DNA of 52,140 nucleotides from a virus: positions 1 through 52,140 of IMG/VR virus record IMGVR_UViG_3300025122_003001, one strand, 5' to 3'. Each line of letters begins with the position of its first letter. Positions within the stretch are counted from its first letter, which is position 1. Of the stretch, positions 19,491 through 35,550 are shown piece by piece. Below the pieces are notes generated by a model. That model saw nothing but the letters and a program-made list of their open reading frames with translations. It searched no databases and was not told the DNA's origin. The position numbers were made by a program, and so were the translations under genes.

Positions 19491-19736
19491 TTACTTCTTA
19501 ATTTCGTTATATCTGTATTTTTTAGATATCTCTCTGTTAAAGAATTTTCCTTGACTTTCTGACATCCTAAACTTGGTGAATATGCTATGTGGCACATCGT
19601 GGTATTGATATTTTCTACCACCTTTAAATGTAACTAGAAGTTCACTTGTCTTCGTATCATAGTCTGTATAAGATATGTTACTTGACGCATATTCGTTTAA
19701 TATTCTAGTTCCTTTTACTTCTTCTTTTTTAATCAT
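19491..19736 (-). CDS. KTSC domain protein
   Basis: The 81-residue protein is essentially a single KTSC domain, named for the KTSC motif of its homologues. Landmarks are SSNISYTDYDTKTSELLVTF (18-37), GRKYQYHDVPHSIFTKF (40-56), SESQGKFFNREI and the final KYRY. In other proteins the domain is found next to lysyl-tRNA synthetase-like or phage genes, and its biochemical role is not established. It follows dnaK by 34 bases and is probably part of the same transcript; no TATTTAT or TAnnTTTG motif is seen in front of it. Confidence 0.8.
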   Translation of the reverse strand: MIKKEEVKGTRILNEYASSNISYTDYDTKTSELLVTFKGGRKYQYHDVPHSIFTKFRMSESQGKFFNREISKKYRYNEIKK

Positions 19737-19770: not shown

Positions 19771-21639
19771 TTATTCCTTTACCTCTTCATATTCTACATC
19801 TGTAGTACTTTCTTCAGCTGTAGGTTCTTGTCCTGCCTCTTCTTGCGTAGTCTGGTAAAGTTTAGTGCTTATTTCATTCCAATCACTAGTGAGTTTTTCC
19901 TTTAATGTACTTATAGACTCCATATTTTTATCTTTAATGGCATCTTTTAATTCTTTAAGAACACTTTCTAGTTTGGTCTTGTCCTCTTCATCTAACTTAT
20001 CACCAAATTCTTCAATTTGTTTTTCTGTTTGGTACACTAAAGCATCTACCTCATTCAACATATTTATCTCTTCTTTCTTTCTTTTGTCTTCTGCTGCATT
20101 TGTTTCAGCGTCCATTCTCATCTTTTTAATTTCCTCTTCTGATAAGCTACTTCCGGATTCAATTTTGATATTTTGACTCTTACCCGTTCCCTTATCATTT
20201 GCTTTTACATTAATAATACCATTAGCATCAATATCAAATGTAACCTCAATTTGAGGAATTCCTCTTGGTGCAGGTGGAATATCTGTAAGTTGGAATCTTC
20301 CTAATGTTCTGTTGTCTCCTGCCATAGGTCTTTCTCCCTGTAGAACATGAATGTCTACTGCTGGTTGATTGTTGGAAGCTGTGGAGAATACCTCACTTTT
20401 AGATGTCGGTATTGTAGTATTTGATTCTATTAATGTTGTCATTATGCCACCCATAGTTTCAATACCTAGTGATAATGGGGTTACATCTAATAATAAAACA
20501 TCTTTAACGTCACCCGCTAATACACCACCTTGTATAGCAGCTCCCATCGCTACTACTTCATCTGGGTTAACCCCTTTAGATGGTTTCTTTTTGAATAACT
20601 TTTCTACCGCTGCTTGAATAACTGGTATTCTAGTTGAGCCACCAACTAATATTATATCATCAATCTCACTAACTTTTATGCCAGCATCTTTAATTGCTTT
20701 TCTACAAGGTGCTAAACTTTTTTTAACCAATGAGTCTACCATAGATTCAAACTTAGCTCTAGATAATGTACGAACTAAATGTTTTGGTCCAGTATTGTCT
20801 GCCGTAATATAAGGTAAATTAATCTCTGTATTTGTAGAAGTTGATAGTTCTACTTTTGCTTTTTCTGAAGCCTCTCTTAACCGTTGTAGAGCAGATGCAT
20901 CATTACTTATATCCATACCACTCTCTTCTTTAAATTCTTTAATTAACCATTCTATGATTATCTCATCAAAATTATCTCCACCTAAATGTGTATCACCATT
21001 GGTAGATTTTACTTCAAATACACCATCAGCTATCTCTAATATAGAAATATCAAATGTACCACCACCTAAATCATATACCGCTATAATTTTTTCTTTTTTC
21101 TCATCTATCCCATAAGCTAATGCTGCTGCGGTTGGTTCATTAATAATTCTTAGGACGTTTAATCCTGCTATTTCACCTGCTTCTTTAGTGGCTTGTCTTT
21201 GTGAGTCATTAAAATATGCTGGTACCGTTATGACGGCGTCTTTTACTGTTTCTCCCAAATATTCTTCTGCTGTTTTTTTAAGATTCTGTAATACTACAGC
21301 TGATATTTCTTGTGGGAGATATGTCTTTCCGTCAATTACAATATCAACATTTGAGTCGGTGCCTTTTTTTACAGTATAAGCCATTTTTTTAGCTTCCTTA
21401 CTTATTTCACTAAATTTGCTACCTATAAAACGTTTTATAGAATAAACTGTATTTTTTGGGTTTGTTACTGCTTGTCTTTTAGCTGGGTCCCCAATAACCC
21501 TATCTCCATCTTTAAACGATACAACCGAAGGTGTTGTTCTTTTACCCTCCGAATTAACAATTATGGTAGGAGACCCACCTTCTACTACAGAAACACATGA
21601 GTTTGTAGTACCTAAATCAATTCCAATTATTTTTGCCAT
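19771..21639 (-). CDS. dnaK: Hsp70 chaperone DnaK, full length
   Basis: A complete DnaK of 622 residues. The ATPase domain has IDLGTTNS (7-14), DLGGGTFD (190-197) and VGGSTRIPV (332-340). The interdomain linker is DVLLLDV (380-386). Then follow the substrate-binding beta domain ([20 protein letters not shown]) and the helical lid. The C-terminus ends VEYEEVKE, close to the usual EEVKDK ending. Nothing indicates inactivation. It binds unfolded chains in an ATP-driven cycle; no DnaJ or GrpE gene is in the window, so host co-chaperones are presumably used. It starts one base after the hsp20 stop codon, indicating one operon. Phage-encoded full-length DnaK is uncommon. Confidence 0.97.
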
Positions 21640-21640
21640 A

Positions 21641-22087
21641 TTAACTTATTTTTATTTCTTTTTTATTATTACTATTTTTTACTAATTTAGGCACTTCTAT
21701 ACCTAAAATACCATTTTCTACCTTTGCTTTGATGTTATCCATATCAACATTCTCAGGTAATCTATAATCTAACTCTAATTCTGTATTATAGAAGTCTCTT
21801 CTAATATAAGTTTTATTATCTACTTTAAATTTATCCTCTGATTTTGAACTTATGTTTAAATGCCCACGTTCTGCTGTTATAGAAATATCTTTTTTTGTAA
21901 GTCCTGGAACTTGCATTTCTAACCTATAAGAATTATCGTCTTCTAATAAGTTACTTCTTCCAGTAGATATTGCTATATTATCAGGCGTTACAGTGGGTAA
22001 ATAACTGTCAGTTTCGAGGAATGGGTCGTTGAAGAAGTCATCTATCACTCTCCCCAAGTTTGTTCTCTTTGTTTTTAACATAATCAT
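21641..22087 (-). CDS. Small heat-shock protein (Hsp20, alpha-crystallin domain)
   Basis: The 148-residue protein has the Hsp20 layout: a short N-terminal arm with [12 protein letters not shown], the alpha-crystallin domain (about 45-135) with [18 protein letters not shown], and [11 protein letters not shown] (about 128-138). The C-terminal anchor is KEIKIS, providing the I-x-I motif used for oligomer assembly. It holds unfolding proteins for refolding by DnaK, whose gene follows one base downstream. Met1 or Met3 could be the start. T4-like phages often carry an Hsp20; its pairing with dnaK is the notable point. The upstream region shared with the clpC-like gene contains two perfect dyads. 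Confidence 0.92.
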
Positions 22088-22297: not shown

Positions 22298-24346
22298 ATG
22301 AAAGAAAAAATAGAATCAACATTTTCTGGTATCGAAGAAGAAGGAGCCCAGAGTAAGAAACCAAAGAAAAATAAAGGAGAAAAATCAAGTAGAACACCTA
22401 TCCTAGATAACTTCTCTAGAGATTTAATAAAGTTGGCTGGTGAGGGTAAATTAGACCCTGTAGTAGGTAGAAAAGCTGAGATAACTAGAGTAGCACAAAT
22501 ATTATGTAGAAGAAAGAAAAATAACCCAGTTCTAATTGGGGGTCCGGGGTGTGGTAAGACTGCTTTGGCTGAAGGGTTGGCACTCAAAATTCATAGCGGT
22601 AAATGTCCACGTAATTTATTAGATAAAAAAATTGTTGCATTAGAACTGACTAGTTTAGTAGCTGGCACTAAATACAGAGGCCAGTTTGAGGAGCGAATGA
22701 AGGCTGTCTTAGAAGAACTTAGAGAAAATCCAGATATTATAATTTTCATAGATGAATTACACACAGTTGTAGGTACGGGTAATTCTTCTGGTTCTCTAGA
22801 TGCAGCTAATATTTTTAAACCTGCATTAGCAAGAGGTGAATTACAATGTATCGGAGCTACTACATTAGATGAATATAGAGAAAATATAGAAAAGGATGGT
22901 GCGTTAGAAAGAAGATTCCAAAAAGTTATGGTGGAACCAACAACTATTGAAGAAACATTAGAAATACTAATTAACCTAAAAGAAAAATATGAAGACCACC
23001 ATAAAGTGGTTATTAGTAATGAAATACTAAAACTCTGTGTTAAGTTAGCAGAAAGATACATCACACATAGAGAATTTCCTGATAAAGCAATTGACATAAT
23101 GGATGAAGTGGGTGCTAAAGTTCAAGTAGATATAGAGTATCCTGTAGAAATAGAAAGTCTGCGTAAGAATATTAATAAATTAGGTGATGAAAAAAAATCT
23201 GTTGTAAAATCACAACAATATGAAAAGGCTGCACAACTAAGAGATAAAGAGCTGAAACTACTTAAGAGGTTGGATAGTTTAAAGTTTGCGTGGGAACTAG
23301 AAATGGAAGAAAAAAGAACTGTTGTAGATTTAGATGATTTATATACTGTTGTTTCCCAAATGACTAAAATACCATTAAGTAAATTATCTGAAAATGAAAT
23401 GGCTAATCTCATAGACTTGGAATCAAAACTAAGAGAGCATGTTGTAGGACAAGATGAGGCTATTGAAAAAATATGTAAAGCTATTAGAAGAAATAGGGTC
23501 GGTATTAGAGACGGTTCTAAACCTATAGGCACTTTTATGTTCCTAGGGCAAACCGGTATAGGTAAAACACACCTAGCTAAATCTTTAGCAAAAGAAATAT
23601 TTGGTTCAGCAGATTCTCTAATTAGAGTAGACATGTCAGAATATCAAGAGAAATTTAATACGTCTAGACTGATTGGTTCACCTCCTGGTTATGTTGGGTA
23701 TAATCAAGGTGGACAATTAACCGAGGCTGTACGTAATAAACCGTATAGTGTTGTATTGTTTGATGAGATAGAGAAAGCTCATCCAGATGTTTTTAATATA
23801 CTTCTTCAAGTCTTTGATGATGGTCATATGACTGATGGGATGGGAAGAGTTATTAACTTTAAGAATACTTTAATAATTATGACTTCGAATATAGGGGTTA
23901 AAAAACTTCAAGACTTTGGTAATGGAATAGGTTTTAATACTTCTGCTAGATTAGAGAAAAAAGAAGAAGCACTGAAGGACATAATTGCTTCTCAATTAAA
24001 AAAGTCTTTTAGCCCAGAATTCTTAAATAGAGTAGACGATACTATCGTATTCAATTATCTAGATGAAAAAAATATAGAAGAAATTGTTAAAATAGAACTT
24101 AATAACCTTAAAGAAAGATTATTAGAAAAAAATTATAATATAACCTTCAATGTTTCAGTTAAGAAATTTATAGCTAAAGAATCATATGATGAAAAATTCG
24201 GAGCAAGACCTTTAAAAAGAATGATTCAAAATAAAATAGAAGACTTTATATCTGAAGAAATTCTAAAAGGAAAGATTAAAGAAAATTGTAAATATTCTAT
24301 TAGTATGGATAAGAAAACAGAAAAACTTAAATTAAAAAGTCTCTAG
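22298..24346 (+). CDS. ClpC-like double-AAA+ unfoldase lacking the N domain
   Basis: The 682-residue protein has both AAA+ modules of class I Clp ATPases. D1: Walker A GGPGCGKT (81-88), Walker B IIIFIDE (147-153), GALERRFQKV (201-210). D2: Walker A GQTGIGKT (417-424), Walker B VVLFDE (485-490). Between them is a short UVR-like coil QQYEKAAQLRDKE (306-318), the ClpC mark, rather than the long ClpB middle domain. The loop GIGF (543-546) matches the I/V-G-F ClpP-docking loop. The N-terminal Clp repeat domain (about 150 residues) is missing, replaced by a short charged arm. It would unfold substrates and could feed them to host ClpP. The gene diverges from hsp20-dnaK and has its own host-type promoter. 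Confidence 0.93.
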   Translation: MKEKIESTFSGIEEEGAQSKKPKKNKGEKSSRTPILDNFSRDLIKLAGEGKLDPVVGRKAEITRVAQILCRRKKNNPVLIGGPGCGKTALAEGLALKIHSGKCPRNLLDKKIVALELTSLVAGTKYRGQFEERMKAVLEELRENPDIIIFIDELHTVVGTGNSSGSLDAANIFKPALARGELQCIGATTLDEYRENIEKDGALERRFQKVMVEPTTIEETLEILINLKEKYEDHHKVVISNEILKLCVKLAERYITHREFPDKAIDIMDEVGAKVQVDIEYPVEIESLRKNINKLGDEKKSVVKSQQYEKAAQLRDKELKLLKRLDSLKFAWELEMEEKRTVVDLDDLYTVVSQMTKIPLSKLSENEMANLIDLESKLREHVVGQDEAIEKICKAIRRNRVGIRDGSKPIGTFMFLGQTGIGKTHLAKSLAKEIFGSADSLIRVDMSEYQEKFNTSRLIGSPPGYVGYNQGGQLTEAVRNKPYSVVLFDEIEKAHPDVFNILLQVFDDGHMTDGMGRVINFKNTLIIMTSNIGVKKLQDFGNGIGFNTSARLEKKEEALKDIIASQLKKSFSPEFLNRVDDTIVFNYLDEKNIEEIVKIELNNLKERLLEKNYNITFNVSVKKFIAKESYDEKFGARPLKRMIQNKIEDFISEEILKGKIKENCKYSISMDKKTEKLKLKSL

Positions 24347-34138: not shown

Positions 34139-35032
34139 TTAGAATAAATTAAGGTGGTTTGCGGGTTTTGATTTATATTTGTATTTGTTTTCCCCTAGTA
34201 TGTTAGTGACTTTTTTGCCCAGAGTAAGAGCATTAAATACGTCCTCTATCACTACATACTCATTTTTGGTGTGGTAGTTGTAATATCCTGATGCGAAATT
34301 TAAACAACTGAAGTCGAATTTCTTCTTTAACATCATAGTATCAGTATATGGGTGATTTAACCATTCTGTTATACCGTGTTCTAAAATAATGTCTTTAGTT
34401 TTATTAATAAATTCACTATTTTCTTTAAATAGTTTAACCCCCATTAAGGAAAGACTCATGGTATCATTTTCTGTAGAATCAAATTGTAAGGCATAACCAA
34501 CGTCCTTAAAAAAGTCTTCGTCTGCCTCTTTAGACCCATGACATCCAGTTTCTTCAGCAACTGGTAAAAATATTTTACAAGTATCAAGTTCTCTTAATAG
34601 TTCTAGACATATGAATACGCCTGCTTTATCATCGCCCCCAATACCTGTTGGTTCTCCAGTATCTCTTTCATAAGCTTTTAAAGCTGGTCTATGTTGTCCT
34701 TGTGCGTTTGGTAGTATCTCTTCTTTAACCACCATATCCACCCTTTCATGGACACTATCCAAATGTGCTACAAAACATGGGTAGTATTCAGCTTTACCCT
34801 TAGTTATGTAAATGTTACCTAAGTCGTCTATATCCATAGTATCGAAATCAGTGGTATTATCTACTATATGCTGAATTAACTCTTGTTCCTCCCAAGTTTT
34901 GGTGGGTACCGATAGAATTCCTTTCAATCTGTTTATTTTTTGTATATATTCGTCATATGAATAATCATAATCTATATAGTCATTTCCGATAGTCATTCCA
35001 GTCTTAAGTATGTGTTCTGTAGTTTTACTCAT
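34139..35032 (-). CDS. Di-metal (zinc) peptidase, M20/M28/M42-like
   Basis: The 297-residue protein has the metal-ligand pattern of co-catalytic zinc peptidases: VAHLDSV (88-94) with the first His and catalytic Asp, GIGGDDKAGV (131-140) with the bridging Asp, AEETGCHGS (158-166) with the catalytic and metal Glu, FDSTEND (about 179-185), and the terminal His in YHTKNEY (about 254-260). Together they form a complete active site. Substrate could be peptides or an amide; PepT-type tripeptidases are the nearest in spacing. It has a host-type promoter facing away from the tmRNA promoter and no late motif. Its place beside tmRNA suggests a link to peptide turnover, as inference only. Confidence 0.82.
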   Translation of the reverse strand: MSKTTEHILKTGMTIGNDYIDYDYSYDEYIQKINRLKGILSVPTKTWEEQELIQHIVDNTTDFDTMDIDDLGNIYITKGKAEYYPCFVAHLDSVHERVDMVVKEEILPNAQGQHRPALKAYERDTGEPTGIGGDDKAGVFICLELLRELDTCKIFLPVAEETGCHGSKEADEDFFKDVGYALQFDSTENDTMSLSLMGVKLFKENSEFINKTKDIILEHGITEWLNHPYTDTMMLKKKFDFSCLNFASGYYNYHTKNEYVVIEDVFNALTLGKKVTNILGENKYKYKSKPANHLNLF

Positions 35033-35101: not shown

Positions 35102-35133
35102 TTTTGTCCTTTTATAAAGTTTGTTTATATTTG
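35102..35133 (+). promoter_or_regulatory. Host-type promoter for the tmRNA
   Basis: TTTTG (35102-35106), 19 bases, then TATATTTG (35126-35133), the Bacteroidetes consensus. Position 35140, the mature 5' end of the tmRNA, is 7 bases further on, so little or no 5' trimming would be needed. Confidence 0.75.
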
Positions 35134-35139
35134 TCATAT

Positions 35140-35550
35140 GGGGGTGACTGGAATTGATTGGCATCATTTGGTCAATATCAGCACGTCAAGGCTGAACTAA
35201 CCTTGTAAAACTGGTTCATTTTTTTCTAATCGGCAACGTATTAGATACGATGGCTACTCTTGGACTTGTTCGTGAGGGGTCGTCTGTAGCTGTAGCGTAA
35301 CTAAGTTACGATATAGCTCCGGTTCAATTAGAGTGGATTTAAGATTTGTGGCTTTAATATAGAACCGTCATTCATACAAATCGAACCCGGCACTAACTGT
35401 TCGGCCGGTAAATAATAGAACAGGTGCGATAGCCCCTAAGGTTGTTTATTCTATAAGGGTTGTCAAAGCAAAATGAATAAACTAAACGTGTAGGATAGAT
35501 ATTTTTTGAAGATGAACAAGACGGGGGTTCGATACCCCCCACCTCCACCA
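35140..35550 (+). ncRNA. ssrA: Transfer-messenger RNA (tmRNA)
   Basis: A complete one-piece tmRNA of 411 bases. The 5' end GGGGGTG pairs with CACCTCC at the 3' end, keeping the G:U wobble at the third pair that marks tmRNA for alanylation. The T-arm is GGGGG-TTCGATA-CCCCC and CCA is encoded (35548-35550). The tag frame is read from GGC at 35232, tmRNA position 93 (position 90 in E. coli), preceded by CTAATC. It runs 22 codons to TAA at 35298. The encoded tag is GNVLDTMATLGLVREGSSVA followed by VA. The stop lies in a strong hairpin (35287-35316) corresponding to helix P5. It rescues stalled ribosomes and tags the nascent chain. The exact resume codon is inferred, but the frame is well supported. 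Confidence 0.95.

Follow-up and report, generated by a model that had tools for sequence, protein, structure and literature searches.

We identified a complete transfer-messenger RNA (tmRNA) in a virus fragment of 52,140 bases from IMG/VR (the whole of which we call the window), and we consider it probable that this is a working phage tmRNA within a phage-encoded protein quality-control set, a tag-and-degrade pathway of a T4-like clade of large phages that probably infect Bacteroidota. The window has a T4-like gene content, with a gp23-type capsid protein, a gp20-type portal, an S77 prohead protease and a large terminase. Relatives collected by the terminase and by the peptidase next to the tmRNA amounted to more than 100 viral contigs, some of 245–362 kb, and the nearest named phages, Flavobacterium phage immuto, Microcystis phage Mel-JY01 and Rhodothermus phage RM378, were distant.

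The tmRNA (ssrA) is one-piece and full length and lies on the plus strand at 35140–35550. The match to Rfam model RF00023 covered exactly these positions and model positions 1–374 of 374 (111 bits, E 1.3e-42; cmscan, gathering score 47), reproducing the coordinates of the complete phage-borne tmRNA that the initial annotation had proposed. Its further details, an alanine-type acceptor with G:U in the third position, an encoded CCA and a canonical T-arm, were all seen in the sequence or the Rfam alignment. The 5′ strand of the acceptor stem (GGGGGUG, 35140–35146) pairs at 7/7 positions with 35540–35546 (CACCUCC), including the G3:U of the alanine type, and the 3′ strand together with the genome-encoded ACCA occupies 35540–35550; sequence, Rfam alignment and relatives agree on both strands. 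The helices of the pseudoknot regions, of which RF00023 has four, were aligned by the model with several mismatches, and the minimum free energy of the RNA was 3.4 standard deviations under that of dinucleotide shuffles. The tag frame, said to run from tmRNA position 93 to a TAA within a hairpin, was found at 35232–35300, between helix 2 and helix 5, with the hairpin placed by the Rfam alignment, and the full-length match did not put the resume codon in another frame. The window tmRNA is thus genuine, and the observation was confirmed in all points that could be checked.

A tmRNA above the cut-off was present in 37 of 50 related records. Among 44 distinct tmRNAs from the window, the clade and two huge phages, G3:U was kept in all but one, the exception having been wrongly oriented by our script, and acceptor pairs 4–7 varied on both strands (GGGGGUG/CACCUCC, GGGGAUG/CAUCUCC, GGGCCCG/CGGGUCC, GGGUCCG/CGGAUCC and GGGCCUA/UAGGUCC). 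A strict G3:U combined with compensatory changes in the rest of the acceptor is the pattern that selection for alanine charging would leave. Named phages searched by blastn with the tmRNA region gave no match.

The tag frame opens with the resume codon GGC at 35232 (tmRNA nucleotide 93) and closes with TAA at 35298–35300, giving 22 codons on the plus strand and the peptide GNVLDTMATLGLVREGSSVAVA. Short tags ending in ALAA are usual in Bacteroidota, and our literature search for Bacteroidota tag sequences found no paper. The tag had been called unusual, and its length and sequence hold; however, it is not peculiar to the window phage and is common to related phages. Across 38 distinct related tmRNAs detected by the covariance model, the tags were 20–22 residues long and started at nucleotides 91–97. 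As the script that compiled the tag statistics required GG at the start, N, E or D in second place and Ala at the end, it is the remaining positions that provide free evidence: G11 and L12 were invariant in 38/38 tags, position 3 was V, T or I, position 4 was L, F or Y, position 7 was M or L, and the penultimate residue was V in 28. Two clade members fell outside this selection. One (L268) has the tag GNTFAKLAALGLTKEEAVVTI, ending in VVTI, and was the sole related tag excluded for lacking the final Ala; the other (G028/L281), the most divergent phage, carries a different tag of 26 residues ending in AMAA. K was found at tag position 2 in other relatives.

The constraint on the tag is specific to its frame. 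For the first 14 codons, pN/pS was 0.46 in frame versus 0.92 and 1.49 in the shifted frames, and since synonymous sites are near saturation, the true constraint is probably stronger than the measured value. A degenerate tag pattern matched 112 stretches in viral contigs and had no match in the 257 Gb of GTDB contigs scanned. Querying 50,697 named phage records with two tag consensus sequences gave nothing significant. An origin of the tag as a copy of a phage protein was rejected, the fetched loci giving only weak matches besides other tags. Judged from these comparisons, the tag is a family trait of the related phages, about 20–23 residues long, under purifying selection in frame and seen only in these phages.

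A promoter of Bacteroidota type, TTTG-N19-TATATTTG (35103–35133, plus strand), ends 6 nt 5′ of the tmRNA; the per-position background of the full motif in the window is ∼0.001. The motif TTTG-N17-23-TAnnTTTG occurred at most 90 nt upstream in 16/36 clade tmRNAs, compared with 0.12 expected from shuffles. Only the window and its closest relative have it immediately before the tmRNA; in the others it is found at a greater distance upstream. We take this motif to be a Bacteroidota promoter, and its presence upstream of the tmRNAs points to Bacteroidota as the probable hosts of the phage clade. Host assignment from the terminase was dropped, as the GTDB scan gave four weak contigs of mixed taxa. 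Separately, an element GTTCTTTGAAAATAT resembling boxA of rRNA leaders was found just 5′ of the tmRNA in 23/36 clade members (e.g., L256, L257 and L277; 0.035 expected) and was absent upstream of the window tmRNA.

Scanning the window with ARAGORN did not report the tmRNA. We rejected this as a sign that there is no tmRNA and regard it as a failure of sensitivity, as Rfam and the relatives agree. The program detected 9 of 43 tmRNAs of the Gly-Leu tag type, three of the nine with a wrong or shortened tag, compared with 11 of 13 tmRNAs of other tag types; in six relatives (L258, L263, L270, L273, L515 and L520) it called the same frame with the full tag. As most are missed, tmRNAs of the Gly-Leu tag type are probably under-counted. 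The ARAGORN miss and the lack of a detectable intrinsic terminator downstream of the window tmRNA on the plus strand are what one could cite for a decayed or unexpressed copy without function. We consider such a copy highly improbable given the compensatory acceptor changes with strict G3:U, the frame-specific constraint on the tag and the promoter motifs far above background upstream of the clade tmRNAs.

Upstream of the tmRNA, the window encodes a ClpC-like double AAA+ unfoldase of 682 aa (22298–24346, plus strand), identified from domain matches, alignment to Staphylococcus aureus ClpC and relatives. The NCBIfam equivalog cut-offs for ClpA and ClpB were not reached, and we therefore use the label ClpC-like only; there is no true ClpX in the window, a weak ClpX match having led to this same gene. 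The protein contains two AAA+ modules, a UVR motif and a D2-small domain, and aligned with residues 149–802 of S. aureus ClpC at 727 bits. It resembles the ClpC of S. aureus and Bacillus in its two AAA+ modules, UVR-containing middle region and GF loop and differs from them in lacking residues 1–148, the N-terminal adaptor-binding domain. Its ClpP-docking loop reads NGIGFNTS, and both Walker A motifs and an [ILV]GF loop were present in 29/29 phage ClpC sequences checked. At one locus (L537, G044:31700-35600), the ClpC gene is interrupted at the first Walker A motif (GEPG|C...HN|CGKT), and the same split is found in G039 and G052. The interruption looks like a split intein with its two parts in separate ORFs; a 402-aa ORF between the two parts is perhaps a homing endonuclease, and the locus had no Rfam intron match.

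The divergent neighbor of the tmRNA is an M20/M42-type metallopeptidase of 297 aa (34139–35032, minus strand). Eight residues (H90, D92, D134, D135, E160, E161, D185 and H254), making up an HxD, D, EE, D, H metal/catalytic set, were invariant in 21 peptidase sequences, and the AlphaFold model (pLDDT 85) matched TET/M42 and PepT aminopeptidases. The Pfam score was slightly under the cut-off in the window and over the cut-off for M20 in a relative (L304). In two compact relatives read in detail, the peptidase lies inside the interval between ClpC and the tmRNA. An 89-aa ORF 3′ of the tmRNA was rejected as a general partner, being found in the closest relative only. A fucosyltransferase-like gene (PF00852; 35856–36740, plus strand) lies just 3′ of the window tmRNA and had no relative in any other fetched locus.

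Of 48 records searched, a set that included named comparison phages, 44 had ClpC. Where both genes are present (35 records), ClpC precedes the tmRNA in the same orientation in 33, within 11 kb in 32 and at a median distance of 2.8 kb; in the window the distance is 10.8 kb, with two very large genes in between. ClpP was identified in 9/32 records and in 5/13 further clade records, with the catalytic motifs intact in the relatives read (GMAASMG, LHQ and RDLWL in G003 and equivalents in other clade ClpPs; Ser-His-Asp triad, PF00574); the most divergent phage (G028) has its ClpP gene 63 bp away from the tmRNA, in the same orientation. SmpB was present in five records (G022, G028, G031, G052 and G060), adjoining the tmRNA in G031 and G060, and missing from most. 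The window fragment contains neither a recognizable ClpP nor SmpB, and 5 of the 11 contigs of at least 240 kb, several of the five being near-duplicates, have no recognizable ClpP; host partners are therefore needed. The window ClpC is adjoined by genes for Hsp20 (148 aa; 21641–22087, minus strand; PF00011, 74.6 bits) and DnaK (Hsp70, 622 aa; 19771–21639, minus strand; NCBIfam DnaK 991 bits, PF00012 861 bits). Just 12 of the 40 records searched had DnaK; the chaperone component is therefore not shared by all. A small KTSC-domain protein (19491–19736, minus strand; PF13619, 67.6 bits) is encoded beside DnaK.

We also collected viral contigs by a pattern for the tmRNA 3′ end, which is blind to the tag and to the neighboring genes, and searched 50 of them. 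A full-length tmRNA above the cut-off was found in 23, nine with the Gly-Leu tag type and 14 with other tags (ALAA and similar). ClpC was present on eight of the nine contigs with the Gly-Leu tag type, the ninth being a fragment of 4.3 kb, versus 0/14 with other tags (Fisher P value 1.8e-5, which is too small as the nine are interrelated). Ten of the 50 contigs, five of each kind, were included since their tags had already been read by our scripts, their ClpC status not having been read beforehand. Both the linkage and the association between tag and ClpC are partly due to shared ancestry.

From the parts read in the sequences, tmRNA, tag, ClpC, peptidase, ClpP and SmpB, we infer recognition of the tag by ClpC, a flow of substrates and the recycling of amino acids. 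In infected cells, the phage tmRNA, together with SmpB (mostly that of the host and sometimes that of the phage), would free ribosomes that have stalled on broken or cleaved messages. The rescued chain would receive the phage tag, usually with Val-Ala or Ala-Ala at its end, and the phage ClpC, having no adaptor-binding N domain, may bind the tag directly. Its IGF loop would then dock on phage or host ClpP, and the neighboring peptidase could cut the resulting short peptides down to amino acids, which would feed phage protein synthesis. A stronger form, in which the tag, conserved over its full length, is read by phage ClpC in preference to host ClpX and the whole constitutes an orthogonal viral tag-and-degrade system, is a tentative proposal to which we give somewhat less than an even chance. 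If true, the phages would have a route of their own for breaking down what stalled ribosomes leave behind, among it incomplete host proteins made from cut mRNAs, and for recycling the amino acids, and tag and unfoldase would evolve together.

The main rival is plain ribosome rescue, in which the tmRNA supplements that of the host under heavy translation load, host ClpXP or other proteases degrade the products, and ClpC, DnaK and Hsp20 act in folding or in the assembly of virions, with no particular connection to the tag. Such a role would suit the usual Val-Ala or Ala-Ala end, which resembles ordinary degradation tags, the several long relatives without ClpP and the position of DnaK and Hsp20 beside ClpC in the window. 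However, a short terminal signal would not need a tag that is conserved from end to end and has an invariant Gly-Leu core, the ClpP-docking loop was retained in every ClpC checked, and ClpC accompanies the Gly-Leu tag type and not the other tags of phage tmRNAs; we therefore consider this explanation rather unlikely, if a serious competitor to the tag-and-degrade pathway.

The initial annotation had suggested a phage-controlled rescue pathway in which the tag sends rescued chains to a different protease or spares them from host ClpXP. A phage-controlled rescue and degradation pathway gained support from context that the annotation had not drawn on: a ClpC with a ClpP-docking loop on the same contig, ClpP in relatives, the conserved linkage of ClpC, peptidase and tmRNA and a conserved phage-specific tag. 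Sparing from host ClpXP gained no support. Ala is the last residue of almost every tag, usually preceded by Val, which looks like a degradation signal under maintenance, and as the Val-Ala or Ala-Ala end is largely kept, this is the least supported of the ideas advanced. In its general form, a long tag that protects or sorts, escaping host ClpXP and so letting rescued chains persist or be stored, would agree with a tag seen in these phages alone and lacking the usual LAA end. We judge it improbable, as the small hydrophobic end with final Ala was found in 38/38 selected tags (Ala being a selection criterion that excluded only L268) and there is always an unfoldase close by that could dock on ClpP.

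Phage tmRNAs are known from mycobacteriophages Bxz1 and Wildcat and Bacillus phage G (PMC4131195), from Methylophilales phage Melnitz and 402 of 18,146 phage genomes (PMC9004378) and from huge phages (PMC7162821). Ours shares with them that the tmRNA is complete and phage-borne, in some cases alongside SmpB, and differs in being one-piece with its own conserved tag type of about 21 residues and in its linkage to ClpC and a peptidase. ARAGORN is the tool of the cited phage tmRNA surveys. Amino-acid recycling was proposed earlier for the Melnitz tmRNA by its authors (PMC9004378). The Sinorhizobium jumbo phage AP-J-162 likewise combines a tmRNA with several Clp genes, Hsp20 and DnaJ; however, its description does not connect tag and protease, its ClpX gene neighbors those for IF-3 and topoisomerase and its host is alphaproteobacterial (PMC11242549). 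As in bacterial ssrA tagging with ClpXP, ClpAP and Lon (PMC8012679), a tag attached during ribosome rescue would be recognized by an AAA+ unfoldase working with a protease; here, the unfoldase is phage-encoded, ClpC-like and without the N domain, and the tag is longer and absent from the bacterial genomes searched. Our literature search for a link between phage ClpP and tmRNA returned no paper drawing one. As far as the literature searched shows, the conserved long tag, its phage specificity, the tmRNA–ClpC–peptidase linkage and a reason for such tmRNAs having been missed, the low detection rate of ARAGORN, are new.

Phage tmRNAs have long been catalogued without a clear purpose. With a conserved phage-specific tag and nearby genes that could read the tag and destroy the tagged chains, that purpose can now be put to the test using a handful of proteins and a single reporter. 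The related phages may run their own protein clean-up in the host, and a tag and unfoldase foreign to common bacteria would be candidates for an orthogonal degradation tool.

Two further observations came from other records. Three very large phages (LR745206, LR756502 and LR756501; W01, W02 and W04) had no tmRNA above the Rfam cut-off, and all three carry genes for SmpB, a ClpC-like protein and DnaK, with ClpP in addition in two. Short tmRNA-like genes of 78–137 nt above the Rfam cut-off were found in LR756508 (W03, 414804–414915), LR756511 (W05, 2250–2386) and G091 (58147–58224), those of the huge phages W03 and W05 having a G3:U acceptor and being present besides a full-length tmRNA; the three may consist of the tRNA-like domain only, as in mycobacteriophage DS6A.
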